Assembly (NCBI RefSeq): GCF_000211835.1
Contig: NZ_AEGR01000014.1
Coordinates: 1-60,223, forward strand
From: Hylemonella gracilis ATCC 19624
Lineage (GTDB): Bacteria > Pseudomonadota > Gammaproteobacteria > Burkholderiales > Burkholderiaceae_C
Reading direction: 5' to 3'
DNA: 60,223 nucleotides
The notes beneath the pieces are model-generated. The model was not told where the DNA came from. It searched no databases and saw only the letters and a program-made list of their open reading frames with translations. The position numbers were made by a program, and so were the translations under genes. This document shows, piece after piece, positions 3,042-21,217 of the stretch; position 1 is the stretch's first letter; each line of letters begins with the position of its first letter.

Positions 3042-3980
3042 TCAGTCTTCCAACAACAGGCTGCTGGCGATGGCGGCCGCGGCGGTGCGGGTCTCCACGC
3101 CCAGCTTCTCGAAGATGTGCTCCAGATGCTTGTTGACCGTGCGCGGGCTCATGCCCAGGATGTCGCCGATGTCGCGGTTGGTCTTGCCCTTGGCGAGCCA
3201 GGACAGGACTTCGGTCTCGCGCGGGGTGAGCGCCGCGCCGCTCAGGCGGCGCTGAGACGGATCACGGGCCACGGCCTCGGCGGCGGCGAGCGGCAGATGC
3301 CGCAGCAACACCATACGCTCGCCCGGTCCGCCCGGCCCCAGGTGACGGGCCTGCAACTGACTGCCGTCGGACAAGGTCACCAGCGCCTCGCCCTGCTCCA
3401 GCAGCTGCAGCAGCCAGTGGCGCACGGCGGCCTCCCCTTCAGCGAGCGCCGGGATCTGCTGCAACCAGCGCGTGGCTTGGGGTGAACGCCAGGCCACGCG
3501 GCCCTGGCTGTCGAGCAGCAGCACCCCCAGACCGGCCACGTCCACGGCTTCGCGCGCCAGCCGGCTCACGTGCGCATTGCGCAGGTGCGTGGCCAGCCGC
3601 GCCAGCACCTCGGGGATGCGCAGGGGCTTGACCACGTAGTCCACGCCGCCGCAGGCAAAGCCCTGCAGGATCTGCTCGGTCTCGGCCAGACCCGTCATGA
3701 AGATCACGGGCACATGGGCCCAAGACGGTTCGGCCTTGAGCCGGCGGCAGAGGGAGAAACCGTCTTCCCCGGGCATGAGCGCGTCCAACAGCACCGCGTC
3801 GGGCACGCCCATCTCGAAACGCTCCAGCGCCTCGGTGGCGTCGCGCGCGACCAACACGGTGTAGCCCTCCAGGGCCAAGGCGTCGCACAGCATGCGCAGG
3901 GTTTCGGGCGCATCGTCCACCACCAGCACCACGTGGGATATCGGTGAAGCAGCGGCAGCGGACTCAGACAGGGGCAGCAT
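3042..3980 (-). CDS. LuxR-family response regulator paired with the NCS1-kinase
   Basis: Two-component response regulator of 312 residues. The receiver domain spans about 15-130, with the acidic pair VDD at 21-23, phospho-acceptor D66 (LLDALMP), T96 and K118 (VVKPL). A linker of about 110 residues resembles a degenerate PAS-like region. A LuxR/FixJ-type helix-turn-helix lies at the C-terminus (LTPRETEVLSWLAKGKTNRDIG, then MSPRTVNKHLEHIFEKL). The start codon overlaps the 3' end of the upstream kinase gene by 17 bases, so the two are co-transcribed and probably translationally coupled. I infer it is phosphorylated by that kinase and acts at the divergent kinase/urtA promoter region. The linker fold is uncertain. 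Confidence 0.9.
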   Translation of the reverse strand: MLPLSESAAAASPISHVVLVVDDAPETLRMLCDALALEGYTVLVARDATEALERFEMGVPDAVLLDALMPGEDGFSLCRRLKAEPSWAHVPVIFMTGLAETEQILQGFACGGVDYVVKPLRIPEVLARLATHLRNAHVSRLAREAVDVAGLGVLLLDSQGRVAWRSPQATRWLQQIPALAEGEAAVRHWLLQLLEQGEALVTLSDGSQLQARHLGPGGPGERMVLLRHLPLAAAEAVARDPSQRRLSGAALTPRETEVLSWLAKGKTNRDIGDILGMSPRTVNKHLEHIFEKLGVETRTAAAAIASSLLLED

Positions 3981-6900
3981 CTTCGGTCTCTCTCAGACGG
4001 GCGATCAGCGCGTGAAAGTCGAAACGGTCCACGTAAGCGACCAGGACCTGCAGCGTCTCGGCCAAGGCTGGTGCCTGCTCGGCGTATCCCCGCAGCAGGC
4101 TGCGCAGGCCACTGGCATTGCCCTGGCGGGCCAGCGCGATCAGGCGCTCACGCAGTTCCTCGGGCAGGGGCAGGGCCCCCACCGAGGCCAGCGCTGCGAG
4201 GGGCTGGGCGTCGACGCGTTGCGCCTCGTGCACCCATTCGAGCTGAAGCACGCGCGCCAGCAGGTCCAGCAGCTCGGACTCGATCACGGGTTTGTTGACG
4301 AAACCACGTGCGCCCACGGCGGCCAGCAGCTCGGGGCGGTTCTCGAAGGGATCGGCCGAAACCAACAGGATGGGCAAGATGGGCGCGACGTCACGCATCA
4401 ACTGCGCAGTCTGCCAACCATTGAGGTCGTCCATGTTGATGTCGAGCAACACCGCATCGGGCAGGCGCTGCTGCACGATCTCCAGCGCCTCGCGTCCGCT
4501 CGCGGCTTCGCGCACGACGAAACCCAGAGGCAGCAGCAGGCTGGCCAGCAACTGGCGTTGCACGGGCTGGTCGTCCACCACCAGCAGGGTGCGGCGCGGG
4601 TCCAGGTAACCCGCGATGGGCCGCAGGGCATTGGCAACCGGGCGGGCCGGCGGTTCGATCTCGCGCAGGTACAGGCGCACGCTGAAGGTGCTGCCGTGGC
4701 CAACCTCGCTTTGCAAGATCAACTCGCCCCCCATCAGCTCGGTCAGCAGATGGGTGATGGCCAAGCCCAGGCCCGTGCCGGCCTCGCTGGAACGACGGCC
4801 CGCGCTGCCGCGCTCGAAGGGCATGAAGATGCGCTCCTGGTCCTGCGGTGCGATGCCGATGCCGGTGTCCTCGATATCGAAGCGCAGCACCTCGTGCCGG
4901 CAGTCCACGCGGAACACGATGCGCCCCCGATCCGTGAAACGCACCGCGTTGGCCAGCAGATTGATGAGGATCTGACGCAAGCGCTTGGCGTCGGCGCGCA
5001 CCCAAGCGGGGACTCGGCCCAGGGTTTCGAGCCGGAAGGCCAACCCCTTGCCCTCGGCCTGGGGCTGGACCATGCGCGCCAGCTCGGAGAGGAACTCCTG
5101 GAAAGGCAAGGGGGCCGGATCGAGTCGCAGGCGGCCGGCCTCGATGCGCGCCAAGTCCAGCAGCCCATCGATCAGCGCGTGCATGTGTTGGCCGCTTTGC
5201 TGGATGGTGGTGACCGCCTCGCGGGCGCCCCCCTTCAGCGCGTTGCCGCGCAAAAGGATTTGCGCGTAGCCCAGGATGCTGTTGAGCGGCGTGCGCAACT
5301 CGTGCGTCATGCCCGCGACGTAACGGGTCTTGGCTTGGCTGGCGGATTCCGCGGCTTCCTTCGCGCTCTGCAACGCCTCGTCGGTGCGCTGGTGGGCATC
5401 GATTTCCTTCTGCAGCAACTGGGTCTGGCGCTCGGACTCATCGTGCGCCATGCGCCGGCTCTCGGTGGCCAGCACCACCCACCAGGCGCAGACGGCGGCC
5501 AACACGGCCATCAGAGAGAAGGCCTTGATGAAGGGCAGGCGCAAGGCCTCGGCATGCGCCGCGCCTTGCAGGCTTTCCTGCACGTAGACCACGCCCAGCA
5601 GAAACGCCATCAGCGCGGACAGCCCGAGAAAAACGGCGAAGTACTGCGCGACGCGGAAGTTGAAGCGGTTGTTCAAGCTGGCCGGCAGCACCCAGGTCAG
5701 GGCCAAGCGCACTTGGTCGGCCGCGCGCGCCTCGCTCTTGCAGCGATCGTGGCAGCGTGACTCGAGCGAACAGCACAAGGAACAGATGGGGGAGCCGTAG
5801 GCCGGGCAATGCGCCATGTCGGCGCTCTCGAAGTGGTTGTCGCAGACGCTGCAGCGCACCAGCTCGCCCGGCTTCCAAGGCGAAGGGTCGTGGCGCGCGA
5901 GGTAGTAACGCCCCCGCGTGGCCCAGGCCAACAGCGGTGCGGTGAGCATGGCCGTGAACAGCGCGATGAAGGGCGCGAAGGCCTCGGCCCAGACGCCCAG
6001 CAGGCCCGCGTAAGCCACGCAGGCCACGGCCGCCGCCAGCAGCATCGCGCCCAGGCCCACGGGGTTGAGGTCGTACAGGTAAGCGCGGCGGAACTCCACG
6101 CCCGGCGGGCTGAGCCCCAGGGGCTTGTTGATCACCAGATCGGCCACCAGCGCGCCGACCCAGGCGATGGCCACGTTGGCGTACAGGCCCAGCACGTGTT
6201 CGAGCGCGCCGAACACGCCCAGCGTCATCAGCAGCATGGCGATGATGACGTTGAACACCAGCCAGACCACGCGCCCCGGGTGGCTGCGCGTGATGCGCGC
6301 GAAGAAATTGCTCCAGGCCAGCGAGCCCGCGTAGGCATTGGTCACGTTGATCTTGACCTGGGAAATGATGACGAAGATCACCGTCAGCCACAAAGCCAGC
6401 GTCGGGCTGTCGACCGCGCGCATGTAGCCCACCAAGAACATTTGCGTGGGTTCAGCCGCCTGGCCAGGCGAAGCGCCGTACTGCAAGGCGACAAAGGCCA
6501 GGAAGGCGCCAGCCAGCATCTTGAGCATGCCCATGACGATCCAACCTGGGCCGGCCAGCAGCACGCAGCCCCACCAGCGCCAGCGGTTGGTGCGCGTGCG
6601 CTCGGGCATGAAGCGCAGGTAGTCCACCTGCTCGCCCACCTGCACGATGAGCGAGAACGCCACGGTGGCGGCGGCGCCGAACATCAGCGGCTCGAACTCG
6701 CTGCTGCCCGAGGTCAGCCCCGACAGGCTGGTGAAATCGCGGTAGAGCTGCGGCTGCTCCAAGGCGAACCAGGCGAAGGGCCACAGCAGCAGCACGACCC
6801 AGACCGGCTGGGTCCAGGTCTGCAAGCGCGAGATGAAGGTGATGCCGTAGAGCACCAGGGGAATGATGACCAGCGAGGACAGCACGTAGCACCAGACCAG

Positions 6901-7347
6901 CTGCCAGCCCAAGGCCATTTCCAGTGCCAGGGCCATGATGGCCGCCTCCAGCGCGAAGAAGATGAAGGTGAAGCTGGCGTAGATCAGCGAGGTGACGGTG
7001 GAGCCCAGGTAACCGAAGCCCGCGCCGCGCGTGAGCAGGTCCATGTCGAGGCCGTGACGCGCCGCATACACGGAGATCGGCAGGCCGGTCAGGAAGGTGA
7101 TCAGCCCCATCACCAGGATGGCCCACAGCGCGTTGCCAAAACCGTAACTCAGCGCGATGGCGCCCCCGATCGCCTCCAGCGCCAGGAAGGACATGCCCCC
7201 GAACGCGGTGTTGGCGACGCGCCACTCGCTCCATTTGCGTGCGCCGCGCGGGGTGTAGCGCAGGGCGTAGTCCTCCAGGGTCTCGTTGGCAACCCAGGAG
7301 TTGTAGTCGCGGCGGATCGGGAAGATGCGCTGCCGGGCGGTATTCAT
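3964..7347 (-). CDS. NCS1 permease-histidine kinase-receiver hybrid (transporter-like sensor)
   Basis: A 1127-residue membrane protein starting MNTARQRIF at 7347, with an upstream AGAGG ribosome-binding site; a longer frame begins 16 codons earlier. Residues about 12-485 form a purine/cytosine permease (NCS1) domain with a run of about 12 hydrophobic segments. A cysteine-rich insert follows (about 499-537: CSVCDNHF, CPAYGSPIC, CC, CHDRC). Two more membrane segments precede a coiled coil, HisKA with H682 (MTHELRTPLNS), HATPase with the N-box NLLANAVRF, DTGIGIAP and GTGLGLAI, a receiver with acceptor D969 (LLDIN) and K1019, and an 80-residue helical tail without an obvious Hpt histidine. By analogy with CbrA-type kinases I infer that the permease half senses, and may carry, the ligand. 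Ligand unknown; urea, amides or nucleobases are candidates. Confidence 0.92.
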   Translation of the reverse strand: MNTARQRIFPIRRDYNSWVANETLEDYALRYTPRGARKWSEWRVANTAFGGMSFLALEAIGGAIALSYGFGNALWAILVMGLITFLTGLPISVYAARHGLDMDLLTRGAGFGYLGSTVTSLIYASFTFIFFALEAAIMALALEMALGWQLVWCYVLSSLVIIPLVLYGITFISRLQTWTQPVWVVLLLWPFAWFALEQPQLYRDFTSLSGLTSGSSEFEPLMFGAAATVAFSLIVQVGEQVDYLRFMPERTRTNRWRWWGCVLLAGPGWIVMGMLKMLAGAFLAFVALQYGASPGQAAEPTQMFLVGYMRAVDSPTLALWLTVIFVIISQVKINVTNAYAGSLAWSNFFARITRSHPGRVVWLVFNVIIAMLLMTLGVFGALEHVLGLYANVAIAWVGALVADLVINKPLGLSPPGVEFRRAYLYDLNPVGLGAMLLAAAVACVAYAGLLGVWAEAFAPFIALFTAMLTAPLLAWATRGRYYLARHDPSPWKPGELVRCSVCDNHFESADMAHCPAYGSPICSLCCSLESRCHDRCKSEARAADQVRLALTWVLPASLNNRFNFRVAQYFAVFLGLSALMAFLLGVVYVQESLQGAAHAEALRLPFIKAFSLMAVLAAVCAWWVVLATESRRMAHDESERQTQLLQKEIDAHQRTDEALQSAKEAAESASQAKTRYVAGMTHELRTPLNSILGYAQILLRGNALKGGAREAVTTIQQSGQHMHALIDGLLDLARIEAGRLRLDPAPLPFQEFLSELARMVQPQAEGKGLAFRLETLGRVPAWVRADAKRLRQILINLLANAVRFTDRGRIVFRVDCRHEVLRFDIEDTGIGIAPQDQERIFMPFERGSAGRRSSEAGTGLGLAITHLLTELMGGELILQSEVGHGSTFSVRLYLREIEPPARPVANALRPIAGYLDPRRTLLVVDDQPVQRQLLASLLLPLGFVVREAASGREALEIVQQRLPDAVLLDINMDDLNGWQTAQLMRDVAPILPILLVSADPFENRPELLAAVGARGFVNKPVIESELLDLLARVLQLEWVHEAQRVDAQPLAALASVGALPLPEELRERLIALARQGNASGLRSLLRGYAEQAPALAETLQVLVAYVDRFDFHALIARLRETEDAAPV

Positions 7348-7420
7348 GAATGCGCCTCTTTCTGGGGACACGGGCATGCCCACGCGGGTGCACAAGCAAG
7401 AAGTGTTCTCGCGCTGGCGT

Positions 7421-7447
7421 ACGTCGGCGATACGTTGATTGACGTAT
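7421..7447. promoter_or_regulatory. ACGT-core repeat in the kinase/urtA divergent promoter region
   Basis: Three ACGT cores begin at 7421, 7432 and 7442, spaced 11 and 10 bases, so they lie on the same helix face. The last two form the perfect inverted repeat ATACGT-TGATTG-ACGTAT (7430-7447). The stretch lies in the 218-base gap between the divergent kinase gene and urtA and is a plausible operator for the LuxR-type regulator. A further TGACGTC lies at 7488-7493. Confidence 0.45.
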
Positions 7448-7565: not shown

Positions 7566-8834
7566 ATGAAGAAATCGTCCGTCCCCACCCCGCCGCAGGC
7601 CGCCGGCCTGCAGCGCCGCCAGTTGCTGCAGGGCCTGGGAGCCCTGTCCATCGCCGGCCTGCCCGCGCTCGGCCACGCGGCCGCGCCGCCCACCGCGGCG
7701 GTCAACACGACCAAGCTGGCCGTGACCGACACCGAAGTGACCGTGGGGCAGCTGCATTCCTCCACCGGCACCATGGCCATCTCCGAGACGGGCTCCATCC
7801 AGGCCGAGCAACTCGCCATCGACCAGATCAACGCCATGGGCGGCATCCTGGGCCGCAAGATCAAGGTGATCAAGGAAGACGGCGCCTCCGACTGGCCGAC
7901 CTTCGCCGAGAAGTCCAAGAAGCTGCTGGTCAACGACCACGTGGCCGCCGTCTTCGGCTGCTGGACCAGCGCCTCGCGCAAGGCGGTGCTGCCGGTGTTC
8001 GAGAAGGAAAACGGCCTGCTGTACTACCCCACCTTCTACGAAGGCCTGGAGCAGAGCAAGAACGTGATCTACACGGGCCAGGAAGCCACGCAGCAGATCA
8101 TCTACGGCCTGGATTGGGGTTCGAAAGAGAAAAAAGCCAAGACCTTCTTCCTGGTCGGCTCCGACTACATCTGGCCGCGCACCTCGATGAAGATCGCGCG
8201 CAAGCACATTGAGTCGGTGGGCAAGCTGGGCAAGGTGGTCGGCGAGGAGTACTACCCCCTGGGCAACACCAACTTCAACTCCCTGATCAACAAGATCAAG
8301 GTCGCCAAGCCGGACTGCATCTTCGCCGCCGTGGTGGGAGGCTCCAACGTGGCTTTCTACAAGCAGCTCAAGGCCGCGGGCATCACCGGCGCCAAGCAAT
8401 TCCTGCTCACCCTGTCGGTGACCGAGGACGAAATGACCGGCGTGGGCGGCGAGAACTTCGAAGGCTTCTACAGCTCGATGAAGTACTTCCAGTCGCTGGA
8501 CAACGAGAACAACAAAAAGTTCGTCGCCGCCTTCAAGGCCAAGTACGGCAAGGACGCGGTGATCGGCGACGTGACGCAAGCCGGTTACCTCGGCCCCTGG
8601 CTGTGGAAGGCCGCGGTCGAGAAGGCGGGCAGCTTCGACGTGGACAAGGTCGTGGCCGCTTCGCCCGGCATCGAACTCAAGACCGCGCCCGAAGGCTACG
8701 TGAAGCTGCACGAGAACCACCACCTGTGGAGCAAATCGCGCATCGCGATCGGCAACAAGGACGGCACCTTCAAGGTGGTGTCCGAGTCGCCCAAGCTGAT
8801 CGAGCCCGATCCCTTCCCCAAGGGTTACCAGTAA
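7566..8834 (+). CDS. urtA: Urea ABC transporter substrate-binding protein UrtA
   Basis: Periplasmic binding protein that delivers urea or short amides to UrtBCDE. The 422-residue product starts MKKSSVP at 7566, after an AGGAG site. The N-terminus has a twin-arginine-like signal (RRQLLQG followed by a hydrophobic stretch and GHAAA), so export may be by Tat. The mature part is a type I periplasmic binding fold; TEVTVGQLHSSTGTMA, VFGCWTSASRKAVLPVFE and YYPTFYEGLEQSKN are typical of UrtA. It is first in the urt operon, diverges from the permease-kinase gene, and is separated from urtB by a strong hairpin that should raise its relative expression. Confidence 0.95.
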   Translation: MKKSSVPTPPQAAGLQRRQLLQGLGALSIAGLPALGHAAAPPTAAVNTTKLAVTDTEVTVGQLHSSTGTMAISETGSIQAEQLAIDQINAMGGILGRKIKVIKEDGASDWPTFAEKSKKLLVNDHVAAVFGCWTSASRKAVLPVFEKENGLLYYPTFYEGLEQSKNVIYTGQEATQQIIYGLDWGSKEKKAKTFFLVGSDYIWPRTSMKIARKHIESVGKLGKVVGEEYYPLGNTNFNSLINKIKVAKPDCIFAAVVGGSNVAFYKQLKAAGITGAKQFLLTLSVTEDEMTGVGGENFEGFYSSMKYFQSLDNENNKKFVAAFKAKYGKDAVIGDVTQAGYLGPWLWKAAVEKAGSFDVDKVVAASPGIELKTAPEGYVKLHENHHLWSKSRIAIGNKDGTFKVVSESPKLIEPDPFPKGYQ

Positions 8835-8968: not shown

Positions 8969-9883
8969 ATGGAATTCTCGGAAATACTCAACATCACCCT
9001 CATGCAGGGCTTCGCGGGACTGAGTCTGTTCTCGGTGCTGCTGCTGATGGGCCTGGGCCTGGCCATCATCTTCGGCCAGATGGGCGTGATCAACATGGCG
9101 CATGGCGAATTCATGACCATCGGCGCCTACACCGTCTTCCTCCTGTCCACGCTGACGGAGAAATTCGCGCCAGACCTCGTGCCCTTCTATTTCCCCGTCT
9201 CCATCATCGTGGCCTTTGTGCTGGCCTTCGTCGCGGGCTGGCTGGTGGAATGGGGCCTGATCCGTTTTCTCTACAAACGTCCGCTGGACACCCTGCTCGC
9301 CACCTGGGGCTTGAGCCTGGCGGTCCAGCAGGTGTTCCGCTCGGCCATCGGCCCCAAGGAAGTCAGCCCCACGCTGCCCGAGTGGCTGATGGGTTCCTGG
9401 GCCCCGCATGAAGGTCTGGACATCCCGATCAACGGACTGTTCGTGCTGGCGCTCACCGCCGTGGTGACGGGCGGTGTGCTCATCGCTCTGTACAAGAGCC
9501 GCTGGGGCCTGCGGGTGCGCGCCACGGTGAGCAACCGCACCATGGCCAATGCCATCGGCATCAACACCAGCCGGACCGACCGGCTCACCTTCGCCATCGG
9601 CTGCGGCATCGCCGGCGTGGCGGGCGCGGCTTTCACCACCATCGGCTCCACGGGCCCAACCAGCGGTTCGCTCTACATCGTCGACTCCTTCCTCGTCGTG
9701 ACCTTCGGCGGCGCGGCCAGCCTGCTGGGCACCGTGGCCTCGGCCTTCGGCATCGCGCAGACGCAGTCCATCGGCGAGTTCTTCATCACCGGCTCCATGG
9801 CCAAGGTGCTCACGCTCTCGCTGATCGTCGTGATTCTCATGATCCGCCCGCAGGGCCTGTTCGCCAGCAAGGTCCGCCGCTGA
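8969..9883 (+). CDS. urtB: Urea ABC transporter permease UrtB
   Basis: Inner-membrane permease of the LivH type, 304 residues, about eight hydrophobic segments. Diagnostic stretches are LGLAIIFGQMGVINMAHGEFM near the N-terminus, YKSRWGLRVRATVSNRTMANAIGIN in the cytoplasmic loop that contacts the ATPases, and the C-terminal MIRPQGLFASKVRR. UrtB proteins are often longer because of an N-terminal periplasmic domain; this one starts directly at the permease core, which is the shorter variant. The ATG at 8969 lies 10 bases after a CAGGCAGGTG stretch. urtC follows after 28 bases. Confidence 0.94.
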   Translation: MEFSEILNITLMQGFAGLSLFSVLLLMGLGLAIIFGQMGVINMAHGEFMTIGAYTVFLLSTLTEKFAPDLVPFYFPVSIIVAFVLAFVAGWLVEWGLIRFLYKRPLDTLLATWGLSLAVQQVFRSAIGPKEVSPTLPEWLMGSWAPHEGLDIPINGLFVLALTAVVTGGVLIALYKSRWGLRVRATVSNRTMANAIGINTSRTDRLTFAIGCGIAGVAGAAFTTIGSTGPTSGSLYIVDSFLVVTFGGAASLLGTVASAFGIAQTQSIGEFFITGSMAKVLTLSLIVVILMIRPQGLFASKVRR

Positions 9884-9911: not shown

Positions 9912-11147
9912 ATGAACCAATTCACCGCGTGGATCACCCGCAAGGGCCTGGGCAAGGTGCTCATCCTGGCCCTGGTGCTGCTGGTGCTCTTTCCCCTGAC
10001 CTTCGACATCTTCCGCCTCAACCTCGTGGGCAAGTACCTCAGCTATGGCTTCGTGGCGCTCGGCCTGGTCATGCTCTGGGGCTACGGCGGCGTGCTCAGC
10101 CTGGGCCAGGGCGTGTTCTTCGGCCTGGGCGGTTACGCCATGGCCATGTTCCTCAAGCTGGAGGCCAGCGACCCGGTCAGCACCAAGATTCAATCCACGC
10201 CGGGCATTCCCGACTTCATGGACTGGAACCAGCTCACCGCCTTGCCGCTGTGGTGGGAGCCCTTCAAGCACCTGCCCTTCGCGCTGATCGCGGTGGTGCT
10301 GATCCCGACCCTGCTGGCCTTTGTCATTGGTTATGCCATGTTCAAGCGCCGCGTCGGCGGCGTGTACTTCGCCATCATCACCCAGGCCGTGGCCTTGATC
10401 CTGACCGTGCTCATCGTCGGCCAGCAGGGCTACACCGGCGGCATCAACGGCATGACCGACCTCAAGACCCTGATGGGCTGGGACATCCGCACCGACGGCG
10501 CCAAGTACCTCCTGTACTACCTCTGCGCCTTCCTGCTGCTGGGCACCATCCTGCTGTGCCTCTGGATCCAGAAGAGCAAGCTGGGCACTCTGCTGCTGGC
10601 CATGCGCGACAAGGAAGACCGGGTGCGCTTCTCGGGCTACGACGTGGCCATGTTCAAGGTCTTCGTCTTCTGCCTGGCCGCCGCGCTGTCGGGCATCGGC
10701 GGGGCGCTGTTCACGCTGCAGGTGGGCTTCATGTCGCCGTCCTTCGTGGGCATCGTGCCCTCGATCGAGATGGTGATCTACGCGGCGGTCGGCGGGCGCA
10801 TGAGCCTGGTTGGCGCGGTCTACGGCACGCTGCTGGTGAACTTCGGCAAGACCTACTTCTCCGAGACCTTTCCCGACCTCTGGCTGTTCCTGATGGCCGC
10901 GCTCTTCATCGGCGTGACCATGGCCTTCCCCGAGGGTCTGGCGGGCCTGTGGGCGCAGAAGGTGGTGCCGTGGTGGCGACGCAAGCAGGCCGAGCGCCAG
11001 GCCATCCGCGCCGCGGTGCGCCGCGACGCCAACAGCCCAAACAGCCCCACCACCCCGGCCAGTCCTGTCGAAGGGCAAGGCGCGGCGCCCGGGCCACGCG
11101 CCACCGCCCCAGGCCCCACCACGACGCTCAGCGGCCAGCGCGCCTGA
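9912..11147 (+). CDS. urtC: Urea ABC transporter permease UrtC
   Basis: Second inner-membrane permease (LivM type), 411 residues, forming the channel with UrtB. Recognisable parts are YLSYGFVALGLVMLWGYGGVLSLGQG near the N-terminus, GQQGYTGGINGMTDL in the middle, and RDKEDRVRFSGYDVAMFKVFVF in the loop that meets UrtD/UrtE. The last 60 residues or so are a hydrophilic tail rich in Pro, Ala and Thr (SPNSPTTPASP, ATAPGPTT) that is unlikely to be part of the membrane core. The ribosome-binding site CCGGAG precedes the ATG. urtD begins 32 bases downstream. Confidence 0.94.
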   Translation: MNQFTAWITRKGLGKVLILALVLLVLFPLTFDIFRLNLVGKYLSYGFVALGLVMLWGYGGVLSLGQGVFFGLGGYAMAMFLKLEASDPVSTKIQSTPGIPDFMDWNQLTALPLWWEPFKHLPFALIAVVLIPTLLAFVIGYAMFKRRVGGVYFAIITQAVALILTVLIVGQQGYTGGINGMTDLKTLMGWDIRTDGAKYLLYYLCAFLLLGTILLCLWIQKSKLGTLLLAMRDKEDRVRFSGYDVAMFKVFVFCLAAALSGIGGALFTLQVGFMSPSFVGIVPSIEMVIYAAVGGRMSLVGAVYGTLLVNFGKTYFSETFPDLWLFLMAALFIGVTMAFPEGLAGLWAQKVVPWWRRKQAERQAIRAAVRRDANSPNSPTTPASPVEGQGAAPGPRATAPGPTTTLSGQRA

Positions 11148-11179: not shown

Positions 11180-11923
11180 ATGAGCAACACCAACTTTGCC
11201 CTGGCCGTGGAAGACCTCACGGTCTCCTTCGACGGTTTCAAGGCCATCGACAACCTCACCCTCTACATCGACAAGAACGAGCTGCGCGTGATCATCGGCC
11301 CCAATGGCGCGGGCAAGACCACGCTGCTGGACCTGATCTGCGGCAAGACCAAGGCCAGTGGCGGCAGCATCAAGTTCAAGAACGAGGAACTCACCGCGCT
11401 GGACGAACACATCCGCGTGCGCCGCGGCATCGGCCGCAAGTTCCAGACGCCCTCGATCTACGAGAACCTCAGCGTGTTCCAGAACCTCGAGGTGTCCTTC
11501 CCCTCGGGGCGCTCGGTGTTCGGCGCGCTGGGCTTCAAGTGCACCGACGAGGTGAAGGCCCGCGTGCAGGTCGTGGCCGAGGAGATCGGCCTGGCCGAGG
11601 TGCTGGACAAGGAAGCGGGCCTGCTCTCGCACGGCCAGAAGCAGTGGCTGGAGATCGGCATGCTGCTGATGCAGGAGCCCGAGCTGCTGATGCTGGACGA
11701 ACCCATCGCCGGCATGAGCGCGCGCGAACGCGAACTCACGGCCGACCTGCTCCAGCGCATCTGCAAGAACCGCTCGGTGATCGTCATCGAGCACGACATG
11801 GAGTTCGTCAAGCAGATCGCGCACAAGGTCACGGTCATGCACCAGGGAAAGATCCTCGCCGAGGGCTCCATGGAAACGGTGCAGGCCGATCCCAAGGTGA
11901 TCGACGTTTATCTGGGCCATTGA
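11180..11923 (+). CDS. urtD: Urea ABC transporter ATP-binding protein UrtD
   Basis: Cytoplasmic ATPase of the LivG type, 247 residues, powering urea uptake. Starts MSNTNFALAVEDLTVSFDG, with CAGGAG upstream. Walker A is GPNGAGKTT, the Q-loop region contains GRKFQTPSIYENLSVFQNLE, the signature is LSHGQKQWLEIG, Walker B is LLMLDEP and the H-loop is VIVIEHDMEFV. A far longer frame read from inside urtC in another phase is only an overlap artefact. It is co-transcribed with urtE, whose ATG lies 11 bases after the stop, preceded by GAGGAG. Confidence 0.95.
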   Translation: MSNTNFALAVEDLTVSFDGFKAIDNLTLYIDKNELRVIIGPNGAGKTTLLDLICGKTKASGGSIKFKNEELTALDEHIRVRRGIGRKFQTPSIYENLSVFQNLEVSFPSGRSVFGALGFKCTDEVKARVQVVAEEIGLAEVLDKEAGLLSHGQKQWLEIGMLLMQEPELLMLDEPIAGMSARERELTADLLQRICKNRSVIVIEHDMEFVKQIAHKVTVMHQGKILAEGSMETVQADPKVIDVYLGH

Positions 11924-11934
11924 GGAGTCACACC

Positions 11935-12624
11935 ATGCTCAAAGTCACCGACATGTACACGGCCTACGGCCAGAGTGAGGCGCTGCACGGCATCTCTTTC
12001 GAGGGGCGCAAGAACGAGACGGTCGCCATCATGGGCCGCAACGGCATGGGCAAGACCACGCTGTTCAAGAGCCTGATGGGCGTGCTGCCGCTCAAGTCCG
12101 GCCAGATCGAGGTCGACGGCCAGGACGTCTCGAAGGACGAAAGCTACCGCCGCGTTGCCAAGGGCATCGCCTACGTTCCCCAGGGCCGCATGATCTTCCC
12201 CACGCTGACAGTGGAGGAAAACATCCAGACCGGTCTGGAGAACGCCAAGGTCCGGCGCATCCCCGAAGAGATCTACGCGCTCTTTCCCGTGCTCTGGGAC
12301 ATGCGCCGACGCAAGGGCGGCAACCTCTCGGGCGGCCAGCAGCAGCAATTGGCCATCGCGCGCGCGCTCGTGACCGACCCCAAGGTGCTGCTGCTCGACG
12401 AGCCCACCGAGGGCATCCAGCCCTCGATCATCAAGGACATCGCCAAGGCGCTGAACGAGATCCGCAAGCTGCGCGAGATCACCATCGTCGTGTCCGAGCA
12501 AGTGCTCTCCTTCGCGATGGACGTGGCCGACCGCCTCTTCGTCATCGAAGGCGGCCGCTTGGTGCACGAAACACCGCGCGCGCAGACCGACGTGCAGCGC
12601 ATCAAGTCCTACCTCTCCGTCTGA
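11935..12624 (+). CDS. urtE: Urea ABC transporter ATP-binding protein UrtE
   Basis: Second ATPase (LivF type), 229 residues. Starts MLKVTDMYTAYGQSEALHG with a GAGGAG ribosome-binding site that overlaps the urtD stop region. Walker A GRNGMGKTT, signature LSGGQQQQLAIARAL, Walker B LLLDEPTEGIQ and an H-loop region with VVSEQ in place of the usual VEH, as is common in UrtE/LivF. The EGIQPSII stretch separates UrtE from amino-acid LivF proteins. It completes urtABCDE, and fmdA follows after 33 bases on the same strand. Confidence 0.95.
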   Translation: MLKVTDMYTAYGQSEALHGISFEGRKNETVAIMGRNGMGKTTLFKSLMGVLPLKSGQIEVDGQDVSKDESYRRVAKGIAYVPQGRMIFPTLTVEENIQTGLENAKVRRIPEEIYALFPVLWDMRRRKGGNLSGGQQQQLAIARALVTDPKVLLLDEPTEGIQPSIIKDIAKALNEIRKLREITIVVSEQVLSFAMDVADRLFVIEGGRLVHETPRAQTDVQRIKSYLSV

Positions 12625-12657: not shown

Positions 12658-13890
12658 ATGGCTGACACCCTGATCAAAGTCGACCTCACCAAGCCCGCAC
12701 CGAGCAACGAGATGGTGCACAACCGCTGGCACCCGGACATCCCGATCGCGGTCTGGGTCAACCCCGGCGAGGACTTCGTGCTGGAGACCTACGACTGGAC
12801 CGGTGGCTACATCAAGAACAACGACAGCGCCGACGACGTGCGTGACATCGATCTGTCCACCGTGCATTACCTCTCGGGCCCCGTGGGCGTCAAGGGCGCC
12901 CAGCCCGGCGACCTGCTGGTGGTGGACCTGCTGGACATCGGCGCCAAGCAGGACAGCCTCTGGGGTTTCAACGGCTTCTTCAGCAAGAAGAACGGCGGCG
13001 GCTTCCTGACCGACCACTTCCCGCTGGCGCAGAAGTCCATCTGGGACATCAACGGCATGTTCACCAAGAGCCGTCACGTTCCAGGTGTGGAGTATGCGGG
13101 CCTGATCCACCCCGGTCTGATCGGCTGCCTGCCGGACAAGAAGATGCTGGACGAGTGGAACCGGCGCGAGGGCGAACTCATCGCCACCGATCCCAAGCGC
13201 GTGCCCGGACTGGCCAACCCGCCGTTCGCCGGCACCGCGCACTGCGGCAAGGCCCAGGGCGAAGTCAAGGGCAAGATCGCCTCCGAAGGTGCCCGCACCG
13301 TGCCGCCGCGCGAGCACGGCGGCAACTGCGACATCAAGGACTTGTCGCGCGGCTCGCGCATCTTCTTCCCCGTGTACGTGGACGGTGCCGGCCTCTCGGT
13401 GGGCGACCTGCACTTCAGCCAGGGCGACGGCGAGATCACCTTCTGCGGCGCCATCGAAATGGCAGGCTGGGTGCACATGCGCGTCAGCCTCATCAAAGGC
13501 GGCGTGGCCAAGTACGGCATCAAGAACCCCATCTTCAAGCCCAGCCCCATCACGCCCAACTACAAGGACTACCTGATCTTCGAAGGCATCTCGGTCGACG
13601 AGCAAGGCAAGCAGCATTACCTGGACGTGACCATCGCCTACCGCCAGGCCTGCCTGAACGCCATCGAGTACCTGAAGAAGTTCGGCTACAGCGGCGCCCA
13701 GGCTTACTCCATCCTCGGCACGGCGCCGGTGCAGGGCCATGTGAGCGGCGTGGTGGACGTGCCCAACGCGTGCGCCACGCTCTGGCTGCCGACCGAGATC
13801 TTCGACTTCGACATCAACCCCACGGCCGCCGGCCCGGTGAAGTTCATCGACGGCAGCATCCAGATGCCGATCTCGCCCGACGTGAAGTGA
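12658..13890 (+). CDS. fmdA: Formamidase (acetamidase/formamidase family)
   Basis: Hydrolyses formamide, and possibly acetamide, to the acid and ammonia in the cytoplasm. The 410-residue length matches FmdA of Methylophilus-type formamidases. Conserved stretches include HNRWHPDIPIAVWVNPGEDF, GPVGVKGAQPGDLLVVD, PGVEYAGLIHPGLIGCLPD, VPPREHGGNCDIKDLSRG and HFSQGDGEITFCGAIEM. TTAGGAG precedes the ATG. Position directly after urtABCDE suggests the transporter also serves short amides, as proposed for fmdDEF-type transporters in methylotrophs. fmdB follows after 26 bases. Confidence 0.95.
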   Translation: MADTLIKVDLTKPAPSNEMVHNRWHPDIPIAVWVNPGEDFVLETYDWTGGYIKNNDSADDVRDIDLSTVHYLSGPVGVKGAQPGDLLVVDLLDIGAKQDSLWGFNGFFSKKNGGGFLTDHFPLAQKSIWDINGMFTKSRHVPGVEYAGLIHPGLIGCLPDKKMLDEWNRREGELIATDPKRVPGLANPPFAGTAHCGKAQGEVKGKIASEGARTVPPREHGGNCDIKDLSRGSRIFFPVYVDGAGLSVGDLHFSQGDGEITFCGAIEMAGWVHMRVSLIKGGVAKYGIKNPIFKPSPITPNYKDYLIFEGISVDEQGKQHYLDVTIAYRQACLNAIEYLKKFGYSGAQAYSILGTAPVQGHVSGVVDVPNACATLWLPTEIFDFDINPTAAGPVKFIDGSIQMPISPDVK

Positions 13891-13916: not shown

Positions 13917-14270
13917 ATGCCCACCTACGACTACGCCTGTCCGGACTGCGGCGGCTTCGACGCGCTGCGCTCGGTCTCACAGCGCGACGAGCCCTGTGCT
14001 TGCCCGGACTGCGGCACGGCCGCCCCCCGGGTCTTCGTGGCCGCGCCGCGCCTGGCCTGCCTGAGCAGCGAGACACGAGCCGCGCACGAGACCAACGAGC
14101 GGGCCGCGCACGCGCCCCGCTCCTCGCGCGATGGCGACTACGGGCGAATGCGACATCCGGCGGGATGCGGGTGCTGCTCGGGGTCCTCGTCCAAGCGCAG
14201 TTCGACGGTGCGTGCCCCCGATGGCTCCAAGTCCTTCGCAGGCAAACGCCCTTGGATGATCAGTCATTAA
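13917..14270 (+). CDS. fmdB: FmdB-family zinc ribbon protein
   Basis: A small cytoplasmic protein (117 residues) with a zinc ribbon at its N-terminus: MPTYDYACPDCGGFDAL followed by CACPDCG, two CxxC knuckles about 17 residues apart. The C-terminal half is low-complexity and charged, with a HPAGCGCCSGSSS motif giving further cysteines. FmdB proteins are repeatedly found beside formamidase or amidase genes and are thought to be regulatory, but their biochemical role is not established. CAGGAG precedes the ATG. Confidence 0.85.
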   Translation: MPTYDYACPDCGGFDALRSVSQRDEPCACPDCGTAAPRVFVAAPRLACLSSETRAAHETNERAAHAPRSSRDGDYGRMRHPAGCGCCSGSSSKRSSTVRAPDGSKSFAGKRPWMISH

Positions 14271-14417: not shown

Positions 14418-15455
14418 ATGATCCACGGCGACATATCCAGCAGCAACGACACGGTCGGCGTGGCCGTTGTCAATTACAAGATGCCGCGCCTGCACACCAA
14501 GGCGGAAGTCCTGGCCAACGCCCGCAAGATCGCGGACATGGTGGTGGGCATGAAGCAGGGCCTGCCCGGCATGGACCTGGTGATCTTCCCGGAGTACAGC
14601 ACGCACGGCATCATGTACGACGCGAAAGAGATGTACGAGACCGCCGCCGCCGTGCCCGGCGAGGAGACGGCCATCTTCGCCGACGCCTGCCGCAAGGCGA
14701 AAGTGTGGGGCGTGTTCTCGCTGACCGGAGAGCGGCATGAGGAGCACCCGAACAAGGCGCCCTACAACACGCTCATCCTGATGAACGACCAGGGCGAGAT
14801 CGTGCAGAAGTACCGCAAGATCATGCCCTGGGTGCCCATCGAGGGCTGGTACCCCGGCAACTGCACCTATGTGAGCGATGGCCCCAAGGGGCTGAAGGTC
14901 AGCCTCATCATCTGCGACGACGGCAACTACCCCGAGATCTGGCGCGACTGCGCCATGAAGGGCGCAGAGCTCATCATTCGCTGCCAAGGTTATATGTACC
15001 CGGCCAAGGATCAACAGGTGCTGATGGCCAAGGCCATGGCCTGGGCCAACAACAGCTACGTGGCCGTGGCCAACGCGACCGGCTGGGATGGCGTCTATTC
15101 CTACTTCGGCCACAGCGCCCTGATCGGGTTCGACGGCCGCACGCTGGGGGAATGCGGCGAGGAGGACATGGGCGTGCAGTACGCGGCCCTGTCCAAGAGC
15201 CTCATCCGCGACTTCCGCAAGAACGGCCAGAGCGAGAACCACCTCTTCAAGCTGCTGCACCGCGGCTACACGGGCAAGATCAACTCAGGCGAAGGCGACA
15301 GCGGCGTGGCTGCCTGCCCGTACACCTTCTACGGCCAGTGGATCAACGACCCCGAGGGCACGCGCAAGCAGGTGGAGTCGTTCACGCGCAGCACCGTGGG
15401 CACGCCCGAATGCCCGATCGAGGGCATACCGAACGCACCGGCGGTCCATCGCTGA
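14418..15455 (+). CDS. amiE: Aliphatic amidase
   Basis: Nitrilase-superfamily amidase that converts short aliphatic amides (acetamide, propionamide, acrylamide) to acid and ammonia. The 345 residues align almost without gaps with Pseudomonas AmiE from the start ([19 protein letters not shown]). The catalytic triad is intact: E59 (FPEYS), K134 (KYRKI) and C166 (LIICDDG). The related formamidase AmiF is an alternative, but the N-terminal sequence is AmiE-like. No amiC or amiR is present, so regulation differs from Pseudomonas. AGAGGATG precedes the start. The MoxR-type ATPase gene begins 27 bases downstream on the same strand. Confidence 0.92.
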
Positions 15456-15482: not shown

Positions 15483-16298
15483 ATGAACGCGGGTGCCGAT
15501 CCACTGGCGGCCTACCGCGTTGACGCCGCGCCCTGGTACCGGTCGTCAGCGCGCGAAGTCGAGCTGTACGAACGAGCCTGGGTGCACCGCCTGCCCCTGC
15601 TGCTCAAGGGCCCCACGGGCTGCGGCAAGACGCGTTTCGTCGAGCACATGGCCTGGAAGTTGGGGCGCCCCCTGGTCACCGTGGCCTGCAACGAAGACAT
15701 GACGGCGGCCGACCTCGTGGGCCGCTGGCTGCTCGACGCGCAGGGCACCGTCTGGCAGGACGGTCCGCTGACGCTGGCGGCGCGCCACGGCGCCATCTGC
15801 TACCTCGACGAGGTGGTGGAGGCGCGCCAGGACACCACGGTGGTGATCCACCCGCTGACCGACGCGCGCCGTCTGCTGCCGCTGGACCGCAAAGGCGAAC
15901 TGCTGCGCGCGCATGCGGACTTCCAGCTCGTCGTCTCTTACAACCCGGGCTACCAGAGCCAAGCCAAGGACCTCAAGCCCTCGACGCGGCAACGCTTCGC
16001 CGCGCTGGCCTTCGACTATCCGCCGCCGGAGGTGGAGACCGATATCGTGGCGCACGAAGCGGGCGTCACGATGGAACTCGCGGCGCGCCTGGTCGGCCTC
16101 GCCCGCCGCACGCGCGCCTTGCGCGAGCACGGTCTGGAAGAAGGCGCTTCGACCCGCATGCTGGTCTACGCGGGCCGCTTGATCCGCGACGGCATGGACC
16201 CGCGCGACAGCTGCGCCATGACCCTCACCCAGGCGCTGACCGATGACCCCGATCTGAGCGCCGCCCTGCGCGAGCTGGTGCATGCCACTTTCCCCTGA
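15483..16298 (+). CDS. MoxR-type AAA ATPase of the CbbQ/NirQ/NorQ family
   Basis: AAA+ ATPase of 271 residues from the ATG at 15483; a GTG is immediately upstream. Walker A is GPTGCGKT at 43-50, with [13 protein letters not shown] typical of the CbbQ/NorQ branch, Walker B ICYLDEV near 106, sensor-1 region VVSYNPGYQ and the arginine-rich STRQRFAAL. Family members work with a VWA partner to remodel metalloenzymes (Rubisco, NO reductase). The partner follows with a 17-base overlap. No Rubisco or NO reductase gene is nearby, so the client is unknown. The position between amiE and ureA suggests an amidase- or urease-related role, which is inference only. Confidence 0.88.
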
Positions 16299-18045
16299 CA
16301 CCCAGGCACCCGGCTCGGACCCAGGTCTCACCGTGCCGAGGCTGCTGCTGCGCGCGCTCAGCCTGCGCGGCCTCACGGTGCAGCACCTGCCCACGGGTGC
16401 ATCCGGTGCATCCGGTGCATCCGGTGCATCTGGTGCATCTGGTGCATCTGGTGCATCCAGCACAGCGCATCCCCAACCGTTACCCCTAGCGTTACCTGCC
16501 TCCACGCGCCCCATCCTCACGGCCACGCACCTGCTGCTGCCCGCGCTGACGCCAGCACTGCAGCGGGCCGCCGTGGCGCATGCCGCCGCCCATCTGCTGC
16601 ATTCCGCGCCCGCTCAACCTCCGAATGGGCTGCGGCCTCTGGCCCAGGTCGTGGTCGGCGCCATCGAGGATGCGCGGGTCGAGCAACTGCTCGCGCGTGA
16701 GCTGCCCGGCGTGCGCGCCTGGTTCGATGCGCCGCTGCGCGCGGCCTGGCAGGCAGACGGATTGAGCTTCTTCGCCCTGCTGTCGCGCCTGGACCTGGCC
16801 CTGCATGACGAACGGTGTCCCGATGACCATCACTGGGTGAACAAGGCGCGCACCGCCTTCGATGCCGCTCGCCGCGCGCACGGGCTGGAGGACGCCGCGG
16901 CCTTTCGCCGGCTCGCGTCCATCCTCGCCAACGACCTCGGCCAGATGCGCGTGCGCCACGAGCCACGGCAGCTGGCCGTGCCCGCGCCGTATCGGGATGA
17001 CCACAGCCACCTGTGGGCGCACAAGCGCAATGCCGAGGAAACACAGAACTTGCCCGCGCCCGAGGCACCTCCCCCCGTCGGGCGCCCCGCCACCGCATCG
17101 CCTCCCTTGACCCCATCACCGAGGGACGAAGCCGCAGCGGCTGGGCGAGACACGCCGACACTGCACCTCTACCCCGAGTGGGACCGGCGCCTCGAACGCC
17201 TGCGTCCCGACTGGTGCACGCTGCACGAGTGGGCGCCTGTGCAGGCCGTGGAAACGCCCAGCGATGCCGGTCTCGGGCGCACACGCCTCCCGTCGCGCCT
17301 CCCGCTGCCATCACGCCCGTCGGTTGGCCCCGGCCGCCGATTGCGCCGCCAATTCGAGGGCGATGAGCTCGACCTGGACGCGGCCATCGACGCCGTGCTG
17401 AGCCGCCGCCTGCAACAGACGCACGACGGACCGGTCTTCCAACGCCGGGCCCCTCAGCAGCCGCCCTGCAGTCTGCTGCTCCTGCTCGACAGTTCCCTGT
17501 CCACCGCGGACCAGGACGCCCAAGGACGCAGCCTGCTGGCGCTGGAACAAGTGGCCGCCTGGCAGCTCGCGCGCACCGTGCTGGCGGCTCGGGGCCGCAT
17601 CGCGATCCATGCCTTCCACTCGGACTCCCGAGCGCGCGTGCATTACCGACGCCTGCTCGATTTCGGTCAAGCCCTGGATGCTCGCGCGCAAGCGCGGTTG
17701 GAAGCCCTGCAGCCGGCCTGGTCCACGCGCTTGGGGGCGGCCCTGCGCCATGCGACCCGGCTGCTGACCGCAGAACCCGCCGAACGACGCGCCGTGCTCG
17801 TGCTCAGCGACGGCGCGCCCAGCGACATCGACGCGCATGACCCGCGTGACTTGGTCGAAGACGCTCGTCAAGCCGTGCGGGAAGCCGCCCAGCGGGGCCT
17901 GCCGGTCTATGGCCTGATCGTTGACCCGGGTGCCGCCACCTGTGCGCGACGCATCTTTGGGGTGCATCGCCATCGCGTTCTTGCGCGCACCGCCCCCTTG
18001 CAACGCCAATTGGCGGCCTTGCATGCACACATTTCAGGCATTTGA
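16282..18045 (+). CDS. VWA-domain protein, NorD/CbbO-like partner of the AAA ATPase
   Basis: A 587-residue cytoplasmic protein. The C-terminal von Willebrand A domain (from about residue 395) has an intact MIDAS motif DSSLS starting at D403, and later [13 protein letters not shown]. The N-terminal half contains the conserved [14 protein letters not shown] helix of NorD/CbbO proteins. A (Gly-Ala-Ser)7 stretch sits at about residues 39-59, encoded by a 9-base tandem repeat, and a Pro-rich linker lies near the middle. The gene overlaps the ATPase gene by 17 bases, so equal expression is likely. In known pairs the VWA protein acts as the substrate adaptor. NorD itself is usually somewhat longer. 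Confidence 0.85.
16396..16458 (+). repeat. 9-bp tandem repeat, seven copies, inside the VWA gene
   Basis: Seven head-to-tail units of GGTGCATCC or GGTGCATCT (three CC units, three CT units, one CC unit) encode Gly-Ala-Ser seven times. The near-identity of the units points to recent slippage; change in copy number would keep the frame. Confidence 0.97.
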
Positions 18046-18159: not shown

Positions 18160-18462
18160 ATGGAACTCACGCCCCGTGAAAAAGACAAGCTGCTGATCTT
18201 CACCGCCGCCTTGCTGGCCGAGCGGCGCAAGGCGCGCGGCCTCAAGCTCAACTATCCGGAGGCCGTGGCCTTCCTCAGCGCCGCCGTGATGGAGGGCGCG
18301 CGCGACGGCAAGACCGTGGCGCAACTGATGAGCGAAGGCCGCACCCTGCTCACGCGCGACGAGGTCATGGACGGCGTGCCCGAGATGATTCCCGACATCC
18401 AGGTCGAGGCGACCTTCCCCGACGGCACCAAGCTCGTGACGGTCCACCAACCCATACCCTGA
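18160..18462 (+). CDS. ureA: Urease gamma subunit
   Basis: Smallest structural subunit of nickel urease, 100 residues, the usual length. [14 protein letters not shown], the [12 protein letters not shown] helix and [21 protein letters not shown] are highly conserved UreA stretches. The gene is first in the urease operon and lies 114 bases after the VWA gene, with an NtrC-like site and sigma-54 promoter in the gap. AGAGGGAAG serves as ribosome-binding site. ureJ follows 74 bases later. Confidence 0.97.
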
Positions 18463-18536
18463 ACCTCCGGTGCGGTCCGCCGCACAGGCTGGCCGCGCCC
18501 TCTGCTTCACACGCACACGACACGCAAGGACCCCGC

Positions 18537-19112
18537 ATGAAACTGCACCGTCTCTCCCCCCTCTTGCTGCTTGGCGCCAGCCTGGCCGCGTCCGCGCATG
18601 TGGGCGCGGATGGCGGCGGGCACCATGGTTTCCTCGCCGGCTTCAGCCATCCTTTCTTCGGGCTGGATCACCTCGCCGCCATGCTGGCCGTGGGCGTCTG
18701 GAGCGCGCTGGCGGTGCGTCGCATCTGGGTCGCTCCGCTGGCCTTCGCGCTCACGCTGCTGGCCGGTGCCTTGCTGGCGCAGGCGGGCCTGACCTTCCCC
18801 GCCGTCGAGCCCATGATCGCGGCCTCGCTGCTGGTCGTCGGCCTGCTGCTGGCCTTGCGCGCCCAGCTGAGCGCGGCAGCCGCGGCGGCCCTGGTCGCGG
18901 TGTTCGCGCTGTTCCACGGCGCGGCGCACGGCAATGAACTCACAGGCGCACCCGCGCTGGCCGGCATGGTGCTGGGCACGGCCTTGCTGCATGGCGCCGG
19001 CCTGCTGCTGGGGCGCTGGCTGCACAACCGGCACGTGCTGCTGGCGCGCGCCGTCGGCCTCGTGGTCGCGGGCTTCGGTCTGTTCACGGGCGCCCTGCTC
19101 GTCGCGGGTTGA
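18537..19112 (+). CDS. ureJ: HupE/UreJ-family membrane protein
   Basis: A 191-residue integral membrane protein with a signal-like N-terminus and about six hydrophobic segments. The family hallmark [18 protein letters not shown] is present, with the second conserved region [12 protein letters not shown]. HupE/UreJ proteins are secondary nickel or cobalt transporters; within a urease operon it most likely supplies nickel for the active site. It lies between ureA and ureB, a common arrangement in Burkholderiales. The ureB ATG follows four bases after its stop codon. Confidence 0.92.
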
Positions 19113-19116
19113 AACC

Positions 19117-19422
19117 ATGATCCCCGGCGAACTGCTGATCGACGACGGCGCGCACCCGCTCAACCCCGAGCGGCGCACCCATACCGTGGTGGTGAAGAAC
19201 ACTGCCGACCGCCCCATCCAGGTCGGCTCGCACTACCACTTCGCAGAGACCAACGGCGCGCTGGACTTCGACCGCGCCGCCGCGCGCGGCATGCGGCTCA
19301 ACATCGCCAGCGGCACGGCCGTGCGCTTCGAACCCGGCCAGCAACGCACGGTGGAGCTGGTGGACTTCAGCGGCGAGCGCCGGGTCCACGGCTTCCGTGG
19401 CCTCGTGCAAGGAAAACTCTGA
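19117..19422 (+). CDS. ureB: Urease beta subunit
   Basis: Structural urease subunit of 101 residues, the usual length. [11 protein letters not shown] at the start, [25 protein letters not shown] and [15 protein letters not shown] are characteristic. Immediately follows ureJ and precedes ureC by 28 bases, so the structural genes form one transcript. Confidence 0.97.
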
Positions 19423-19450
19423 AGCCTCACGCTCAACGGAATATCACGCC

Positions 19451-21193
<1,743 letters not shown>

Positions 21194-21217
21194 GGCTGCA
21201 ATGTCAAGGATGCGGTC

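Follow-up and report, generated by a model that had tools for sequence, protein, structure and literature searches.

A hybrid histidine kinase with an NCS1-fold permease half, encoded beside the urt-fmd-ami cluster of Hylemonella gracilis

Known transporter-kinases and related permeases

CbrA, CrbS and RpuS are SLC5-STAC histidine kinases that have nutrient genes as targets, and Ks-Amt5 is reportedly an ammonium transporter-histidine kinase. Transporter-kinases are known as a kind; we rate the type described here, fused to a permease of NCS1 fold, as new among them, and the palindrome beside its gene is new. The gene lies on contig NZ_AEGR01000014.1 of Hylemonella gracilis ATCC 19624, of which positions 1 to 60,223 were analysed (the window), and diverges from a urt-fmd-ami cluster. 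We consider, at a probability of roughly 60%, that its product (the sensor) is a transporter-derived receptor kinase that controls this divergent cluster via its regulator.

Like CbrA, CrbS and RpuS, the sensor joins a transporter half of the LeuT superfamily to a histidine kinase. The CbrA type differs in its SLC5 transporter and its nutrient; it has a STAC connector (with a PAS domain in CbrA), and in the sensor a cysteine-rich domain followed by an extra helix pair stands between transporter and kinase. Ks-Amt5, too, is said to use a transporter fold as the membrane sensor fused to the kinase, but the fold is Amt and the ligand ammonium. CbrA also resembles the sensor in having a lysine at the Na2 sodium site: as excerpted, the report on CbrA places K196 in that site, describes histidine transport driven by the proton motive force and calls the protein a transceptor (PMC13022988). 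Few transceptors have been reported so far, according to an excerpted account (PMC11109136).

Among permeases, CodB and Mhp1 resemble the sensor in fold and at several pocket positions, as does MetT by the excerpt of its report (PMC13390362). None of the three carries a kinase, and the Na2 ligands and the aromatic residue of transmembrane segment 6 (TM6) seen in CodB and Mhp1 are absent from the sensor. Two other kinase-free permeases are similar to it, one free-standing (locus L193, 31-32% identity) and one from a Streptomyces plasmid (L238, 44%), the latter sharing most of the cysteine-rich tail. The three types make up a natural series, from free permease to permease with cysteine tail to kinase fusion, that may serve as a model for the change from transporter to receptor. 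GrtK/GrtR, the ammonia two-component system of Burkholderia glumae, is likewise dedicated to a nitrogen compound. It was rejected as the same system, GrtK being described in the excerpt available as a 427-residue protein with a PilS-like membrane domain and no permease (PMC12918730).

No paper on an NCS1-kinase was found among the matches listed in searches of the open PMC literature. Among the same matches, the sensing of outside urea and small amides for urt-fmd clusters is unexplained, and the sensor family is a testable candidate for this role. With it, the few transporter-kinases on record would also gain a further kind of fold.

Architecture and fold of the sensor

The sensor is encoded by a single open frame, 3964-7395 if a TTG start is chosen and 3964-7347 from the ATG. 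Its parts are as follows.

3964-7347, minus strand: hybrid sensor histidine kinase with NCS1-fold permease half, 1127 amino acids from the ATG at 7347
5908-7347, minus strand: NCS1-fold permease domain, residues 1-480 (AlphaFold2 (AF2) model, Foldseek, hhalign, pocket alignment)
5728-5865, minus strand: cysteine-rich domain, residues 495-540 (alignment; eight cysteines, each in 63/63 rows)
5428-5658, minus strand: extra helix pair, residues ~564-640 (AF2 secondary structure, helices 564-592 and 596-699)
5134-5334, minus strand: HisKA dimerisation and phospho-acceptor domain, His682 (Pfam and residue conservation)
4666-4992, minus strand: HATPase_c catalytic domain (Pfam and residue conservation)
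4261-4584, minus strand: receiver domain, Asp969 (Pfam and residue conservation)

From the N-terminus onwards, the NCS1-fold permease is followed by the eight-cysteine domain, the extra helix pair, HisKA, HATPase and the receiver, and about 100 C-terminal residues are left without an assigned domain. Pfam places HisKA at residues 672-738, HATPase_c at 786-894 and Response_reg at 922-1029, all far over cut-off, and finds nothing between permease and HisKA (whether its library holds a STAC model was left unchecked). Conservation was assessed on relatives: 143 sensor rows (L056-L195) reached 30% identity and 50% coverage, the closest named one being Hylemonella gracilis at 97% (L056). The 139 complete rows (more than 850 residues) were aligned, leaving aside L129 (broken frame) and L077, L117 and L122 (cut by contig ends), and an 80% identity filter reduced them to 63 rows, window included, on which all counts out of 63 are based. 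The kinase residues H682, N796 and D827 are kept in 63/63 rows and the receiver Asp969 in 61/63, the other two having a gap. With HisKA, HATPase_c and receiver and their catalytic residues, the sensor is a hybrid histidine kinase. The earlier note on this DNA, made from the sequence alone, had described one polypeptide with a permease-like half followed by HisKA, HATPase and receiver, a description that the frame, the Pfam matches and the AF2 model bear out.

The permease half has no Pfam match at E up to 5 and no NCBIfam match either; for the 63 relatives, searched with E up to 10, PF02133 (Transp_cyt_pur) is missing from the best 25 of 44 families. Because the Pfam sequence models give nothing here, the NCS1 label rests on structure and profiles. 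An AF2 model of residues 1-700, with the 63-row alignment as input (mean column identity over the 700 residues, 57%), reached a predicted local distance difference test score of 87.6 and a predicted template modelling score (TM-score) of 0.84. In a Foldseek search with this model the top five PDB matches are all NCS1 (2jln, 7qoa_B, 7qoa_A, 4d1a and 2x79, entries of Mhp1 and CodB), with a best E of 1.7e-9 and a TM-score by target length of at most 0.72. SLC5-type transporters come after these five, and an SLC5 half is thus not supported. Comparison by hhalign gave 99.6% against a CodB-led group and 99.1% against an Mhp1-led group, in single comparisons of small groups. When PDB sequences were searched with a profile of the 63 rows, only kinase matches and two weak zinc-finger-type ones came back. 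The free-standing permease of L193, 31-32% identical over the permease domain, passes PF02133 (36.4 bits, cut-off 23.5).

The modelled permease half shows the full NCS1/LeuT-type fold and is most similar to Mhp1 and CodB; the lack of such a fold, one of the outcomes that the earlier note had named as refuting it, did not occur. Of the purine/cytosine permease half proposed in that note, the NCS1 fold stands by AF2, Foldseek and hhalign, while PF02133 does not detect the sensor. Membership of NCS1 as a transporter family holds only in part, because PF02133 gives no match and neither the sodium site nor the full aromatic pair is kept.

Linkage to urt, fmd and ure genes

A search of 398 Pseudomonadota genomes gave 59 with a match, six of them with distant permeases only and one with a 52-residue fragment. 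The other 52 hold 57 sensor places besides the window, at 52-75% identity and with frames of 883-1312 residues (chosen starts). All 57 were examined with up to 9 kb per side, some flanks being shortened by contig ends, and in 54/57 the sensor is linked to urt, fmd or ure genes within about 9 kb: a close urtA, fmdA or both are near the sensor at 37 places, a distant urtA, urease or both at 17, and neither set at three (L187, and L155 and L192, which lie at contig ends). In named genomes (80 loci, 83 rows), 69/83 rows are linked, 58 being of the urt/fmdA type and 11 of the urea/urease type. In nine of the 14 others the contig ends less than 3 kb upstream of the sensor (L074, L099, L104, L110, L114, L117, L118, L124 and L125), and at L125 a urtA fragment stands at that very end. 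By contrast, when 20 loci of other NCS1-like permeases were searched with the same reference proteins as a control, a single one had urea genes (L254), itself a sensor locus. The earlier note had proposed searching for homologues of the same architecture and their neighbours; at 54/57 places against 1/20 control loci, the missing link to nitrogen-compound genes that would have told against it is not what was found.

The control comprises 10 distant permease places from the 398-genome search plus 9/10 and 1 from two further searches. L193 was excluded from it as a close relative; its amide-type neighbours fit the theme and weigh against a clean control. At that locus (L193:8950-13982) the free permease is followed by genes for AmiR, an AmiC-like binding protein and, directly behind the permease, a double carbon-nitrogen (nitrilase-type) hydrolase; the locus is of amide type and has the same kind of permease but no kinase. 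At L254, an ordinary NCS1 permease gene (PF02133) adjoins the sensor and urease genes.

The window's kinase half is matched at more than 150 bits in 55/57 stretches, L173 and L185 being the two others, and the cognate regulator at more than 80% coverage and 100 bits in 51/57. The six regulator misses are L142 and L145, which carry a shorter LuxR regulator, L143, L144, and the differing L173 and L185. Both of the latter are variants without a receiver and with fmdA near: L185 has HisKA and HATPase by Pfam, and L173 was judged by its length and weak kinase match. In L185 the sensor is followed by a separate receiver-HisKA-HATPase protein, and an FmdB-like gene is also near in L173 and L185. L057, L058, L065 and L195 (the last from the same genome as L057) each hold a tandem pair of different sensors, whose starts are 6.8-7.7 kb from each other.

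The UrtA proteins beside sensors are bimodal with respect to that of the window, at least 69% or 36-41% identical (hits of at least 250 residues, two 27% hits and L193 being set aside). In the 57-place sample the close type always occurs with fmdA and the distant type often with urease. Since the NCBI UrtA model (cut-off 492.75) accepts both kinds, with 520 bits for the window, 531-556 for three close and 558-598 for five distant proteins, "amide" and "urea" are used here as names from linkage only. A urtABCDE cluster adjoining a formamidase has been suggested to take up formamide, in the part of that work available (PMC13209695). On the tree of the 63 rows the amide label requires 6 changes, where shuffled labels need 20.3 on average and none of 500 shuffles was as low; among the labelled rows alone, amide and urea switch five times. 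One amide label, that of the second copy in L065, was given because it stands in tandem with an amide-type copy; in the tree this copy groups with urease-linked sensors.

A candidate operator between sensor and urtA

The sensor and the urt cluster are divergent, their two ATGs being separated by 218 bases, and this gap holds a candidate operator.

7431-7446: palindromic operator candidate TACGTCAATCAACGTA (minus-strand reading), within the 218-base sensor-urtA gap

In 28 non-redundant intergenic regions of the amide type the best dyad, TACGT-N6-ACGTA, is exact in 15, and in 50 shuffles of the letters no dyad reached more than 3/28. Over its ten positions the regions score 10 (15 regions), 9 (4), 8 (8) and 7 (1), and shuffled regions give 9 matches in 0.5% of cases and 10 never. 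The arms often change in pairs: of 78 amide rows with TACGY-N6-RCGTA, redundant rows included, 59 have T/A, 12 have C/G (TACGC/GCGTA) and 7 are mixed. The site is found in 78/95 amide, 2/29 urea and 3/19 unlabelled rows. In ten genomes chosen for their sensor, TACGTCANNNNACGTA has one or two occurrences per genome, against 0 or 1 for the control, and in 10/10 one occurrence stands upstream of the matched sensor, 80-190 bases from its start. This distribution points to a putative small regulon, and the conserved palindrome before urtA adds support to a control of urt, binding by the regulator being predicted.

Other signals were sought in the intergenic regions. A sigma-54 promoter was rejected: on the kinase-ward strand 5/28 regions reach at least 10/12 matches, against about 1% of shuffles, yet the window reaches 8, and the other strand gives 0/28. 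No sigma-70-like site was found in these regions. A urea-type palindrome, GCGCT with a spacer of 4, present in 4/21 urea-labelled upstream regions against a shuffled maximum of 2, was judged too weak.

Pocket, connector and competing explanations

Pocket residues were read from a MAFFT alignment of the 63 sensor rows with CodB and Mhp1, in which the register of TM8 is the same as in hhalign. The Na2 sodium site on TM8 is not kept in the sensor family: the ligands CodB Thr278 and Thr279 correspond to K332 (63/63) and I333 (61/63). These residues bear directly on the strongest competitor, a true transceptor whose permease half would still move amide or urea, perhaps proton-coupled via K332, the transport driving the signal as proposed for CbrA. 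The complete transporter fold and the Na2-site lysine of CbrA, with its proton-driven histidine transport (PMC13022988, as excerpted), speak for it. K332 is no proof of lost transport, because 5/14 free NCS1-like relatives carry R or K in that column. Against it, a dedicated ABC (ATP-binding cassette) importer is already encoded at the same locus, and mutation of CodB Thr279, where the sensor has I333, cut transport according to an excerpted report (PMC9379551). On balance we hold a transceptor, to which the layout had pointed in the earlier note (for amides, urea or a nucleobase breakdown product), to be unlikely, though a serious contender.

A second competitor places the signal in the connector, the permease merely anchoring the kinase while what is read is either the zinc or redox state of the cysteine-rich domain or the nitrogen status. 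The eight cysteines (C499, C502, C514, C522, C525, C526, C532 and C536), a probable metal site, are kept in 63/63 rows while mean column identity is 57%, and the sensor of L135 (a Methylococcales symbiont) lies near ammonium-transporter-like, PII-like and glutamine-synthetase-like genes, as read by eye. However, polar pocket residues are equally invariant, and the cysteine tail is not tied to the kinase fusion, because most of its pattern is also borne by the kinase-free L238 protein from a Streptomyces plasmid (annotated as allantoin permease, 44% identical to sensor residues 20-529). The free permease of L193 has no such tail in its translation. Signalling with this domain or nitrogen status as the primary input appears improbable. 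The extra helix pair behind it is taken as transmembrane in the model, where its second helix runs on as a single long helix into HisKA.

Next in order comes a ring compound: the permease half would sense a nucleobase, hydantoin or other ring, and the urea genes would be on because urea is released downstream. NCS1 relatives do bind cytosine and hydantoins, and Mhp1 Asn314, Asn318 and Gln121 correspond to N334, N337 and E134, each 63/63. As excerpted, the CodB report has Trp108 and Phe204 sandwiching cytosine as an aromatic pair and describes the TM6 aromatic as conserved across NCS1 (PMC9379551). This pair is not kept in full in the 63 rows. The TM3 partner (CodB Trp108) falls on position 130, Phe in 49/63 and Leu in 14/63, whereas the TM6 partner (CodB Phe204) is replaced at position 233 by Leu (56/63) or Met (7/63), or, if the register is shifted by one, by Val, Ile, Met or Leu at 234 in 62/63. 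A Phe stands at position 231 in 41/63 rows, and Q236, E239 and Q240 in TM6 are invariant (63/63). MetT, moreover, is described as an NCS1 protein with a non-ring substrate, in the part of its report available (PMC13390362). Because the CodB sandwich is not kept in full, a nucleobase appears the less likely ligand, and the pocket, as read from the alignment, suits a small and polar one (small amide or urea) better. A ring-compound sensor is accordingly rated quite improbable.

That the kinase reads a loaded UrtA-type binding protein or the flux of the urt ABC importer rather than free solute is very improbable: the sensor is often paired with a urtA of the two clear kinds, yet the urease-linked L169, L175, L178 and L188 have no urt gene in the stretch examined, and at L173 and L185 that stretch holds fmdA without a urtA match.

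Proposed mechanism

The preferred reading remains that of a receptor kinase for small amides or urea. A small amide-type ligand would bind the central pocket of the NCS1-fold half, most likely formamide, acetamide or a like short-chain amide in the clade of the window, and urea in the relatives whose neighbours are urease and a urtA of the other type. Ligand binding would shift the two permease halves, bundle and hash, and the movement would pass via the cysteine-rich domain and the extra helix pair to the long helix of HisKA, altering autophosphorylation. Through the built-in receiver, directly or by relay, phosphate would reach the adjacent LuxR-type regulator, which would bind TACGTN6ACGTA between the divergent transcripts and control urtABCDE-fmdA-fmdB-amiE as well as its own gene. 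A CbrA-style receptor mode of working seems well supported by the anatomy of the protein. Among the positions that differ most between amide- and urea-labelled rows are 56 (TM1) and 398 (TM10), the latter being G or A in 36/36 amide rows and S, M or C in 18/21 urea rows; they are possible specificity sites, a lead confounded by descent.

A more detailed version is tentative, and we would put it clearly short of even odds. The NCS1 fold would have turned into a receptor dedicated to the smallest amides and probably no longer transporting, in which a Na+ ligand has given way to an invariant lysine, the TM6 aromatic has been lost and a metal-binding eight-cysteine domain couples pocket to kinase; the family would have moved several times between amide and urea clusters, perhaps via residues 56 and 398, and onto plasmid cassettes. 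If true, the sensor would be a first receptor of the NCS1 kind and would serve as a membrane sensor for formamide/acetamide and urea.

Several observations weigh against the preferred receptor-kinase reading. Thirteen of the 28 amide-type regions lack the exact palindrome, a score of 8/10 is reached in 6% of shuffles, and the palindrome stands upstream of merely 2/29 urea-labelled sensors. In the 3.6 Mb of its own genome the exact palindrome occurs once, at the sensor, and a control pattern at two places. Rarity, being at chance level, was therefore dropped as evidence, and what counts is the position and conservation of the palindrome. L116, L122, L123, L132 and L135, each with about 10 kb upstream, have no urt or ure match, and the second sensor copy in the genome of the window (L187) has no urea or amide gene in its 9 kb flanks. 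The amide and urea classes are labels assigned from linkage. In the pocket, MAFFT and hhalign disagree by one residue on the register of TM6, Phe 54, 126, 128 and 131 are nearly invariant, so that with the frequent Phe 130 ring stacking may still occur, and the basic residue at the K332 column is shared with free permeases.

At one of these loci, L123 (Methylovulum psychrotolerans), the sensor lies near a biuret amidohydrolase and an allophanate hydrolase, both over NCBI cut-offs; these also handle NH2-C(=O) compounds and count for the amide/urea theme. The second copy (contig C92:43152-45380; L187:8998-12537) has a LuxR regulator of its own, and its neighbours are genes for a TonB siderophore receptor, a PepSY protein and a diguanylate cyclase. 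Another UrtA-like gene lies about 40 kb from it (C92:83906-85144).

Plasmids and mobile cassettes

Of 72,556 plasmid records, 532 match the sensor, 507 of them over at least 80% of the query, and 342 of the 532 are from Klebsiella. In the rows listed, two Streptomyces ones aside, the annotation is ATP-binding protein, response regulator, ArcB, generic kinase or none. Four plasmid regions were inspected, two of which (L237 and L239) bring together sensor, regulator, urtABCDE and an amidase-type gene. In K. pneumoniae pMB8251_1 (L237), the sensor and an unannotated LuxR regulator diverge from urtABCDE and an annotated formamidase; the kinase is annotated there merely as an ATP-binding protein. 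In B. vietnamiensis pBVIE02 (L239), five ABC genes, formamidase, fmdB and a nitrilase-family gene run divergently from the sensor and its regulator, and transposase genes flank the cassette. In S. meliloti 1021 pSymB the sensor adjoins urtA-E of the distant type. A preprint on K. pneumoniae CG307 reports an acquired urea transporter with AmiF; its main text, as excerpted, is without the terms "histidine kinase" and "two-component" (PMC13060141).

Gene cluster in the window

The genes around the sensor are listed below.

3042-3980, minus strand: response regulator with receiver and LuxR-type helix-turn-helix, 312 amino acids (Pfam)
7566-8834, plus strand: urtA-type substrate-binding protein, 422 amino acids (TIGR03407, 520 bits, cut-off 492.75)
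8969-9883, plus strand: urtB (NCBIfam)
9912-11147, plus strand: urtC (NCBIfam)
11180-11923, plus strand: urtD (NCBIfam)
11935-12624, plus strand: urtE (NCBIfam)
12658-13890, plus strand: fmdA, formamidase (NCBIfam)
13917-14270, plus strand: fmdB-type zinc-ribbon protein (NCBIfam)
14418-15455, plus strand: amiE, aliphatic amidase (NCBIfam)
18160-23958, plus strand: urease region with ureA, ureJ/HupE-like, ureB, ureC, ureE, ureF and ureG (ureC by profile, the others by reading)

The first 17 bases of the regulator gene lie within the last codons of the kinase gene. The earlier note's placing of the sensor beside urt, fmdA, amiE and urease is upheld, urtA-E, fmdA, fmdB, amiE and ureC all exceeding their NCBIfam cut-offs. 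Between amiE and the urease region come an AAA ATPase, assigned by reading (its GvpN match is below cut-off), and a VWA protein (16282-18045), in which a stretch of Gly-Ala-Ser repeats lies close to the N-terminus.

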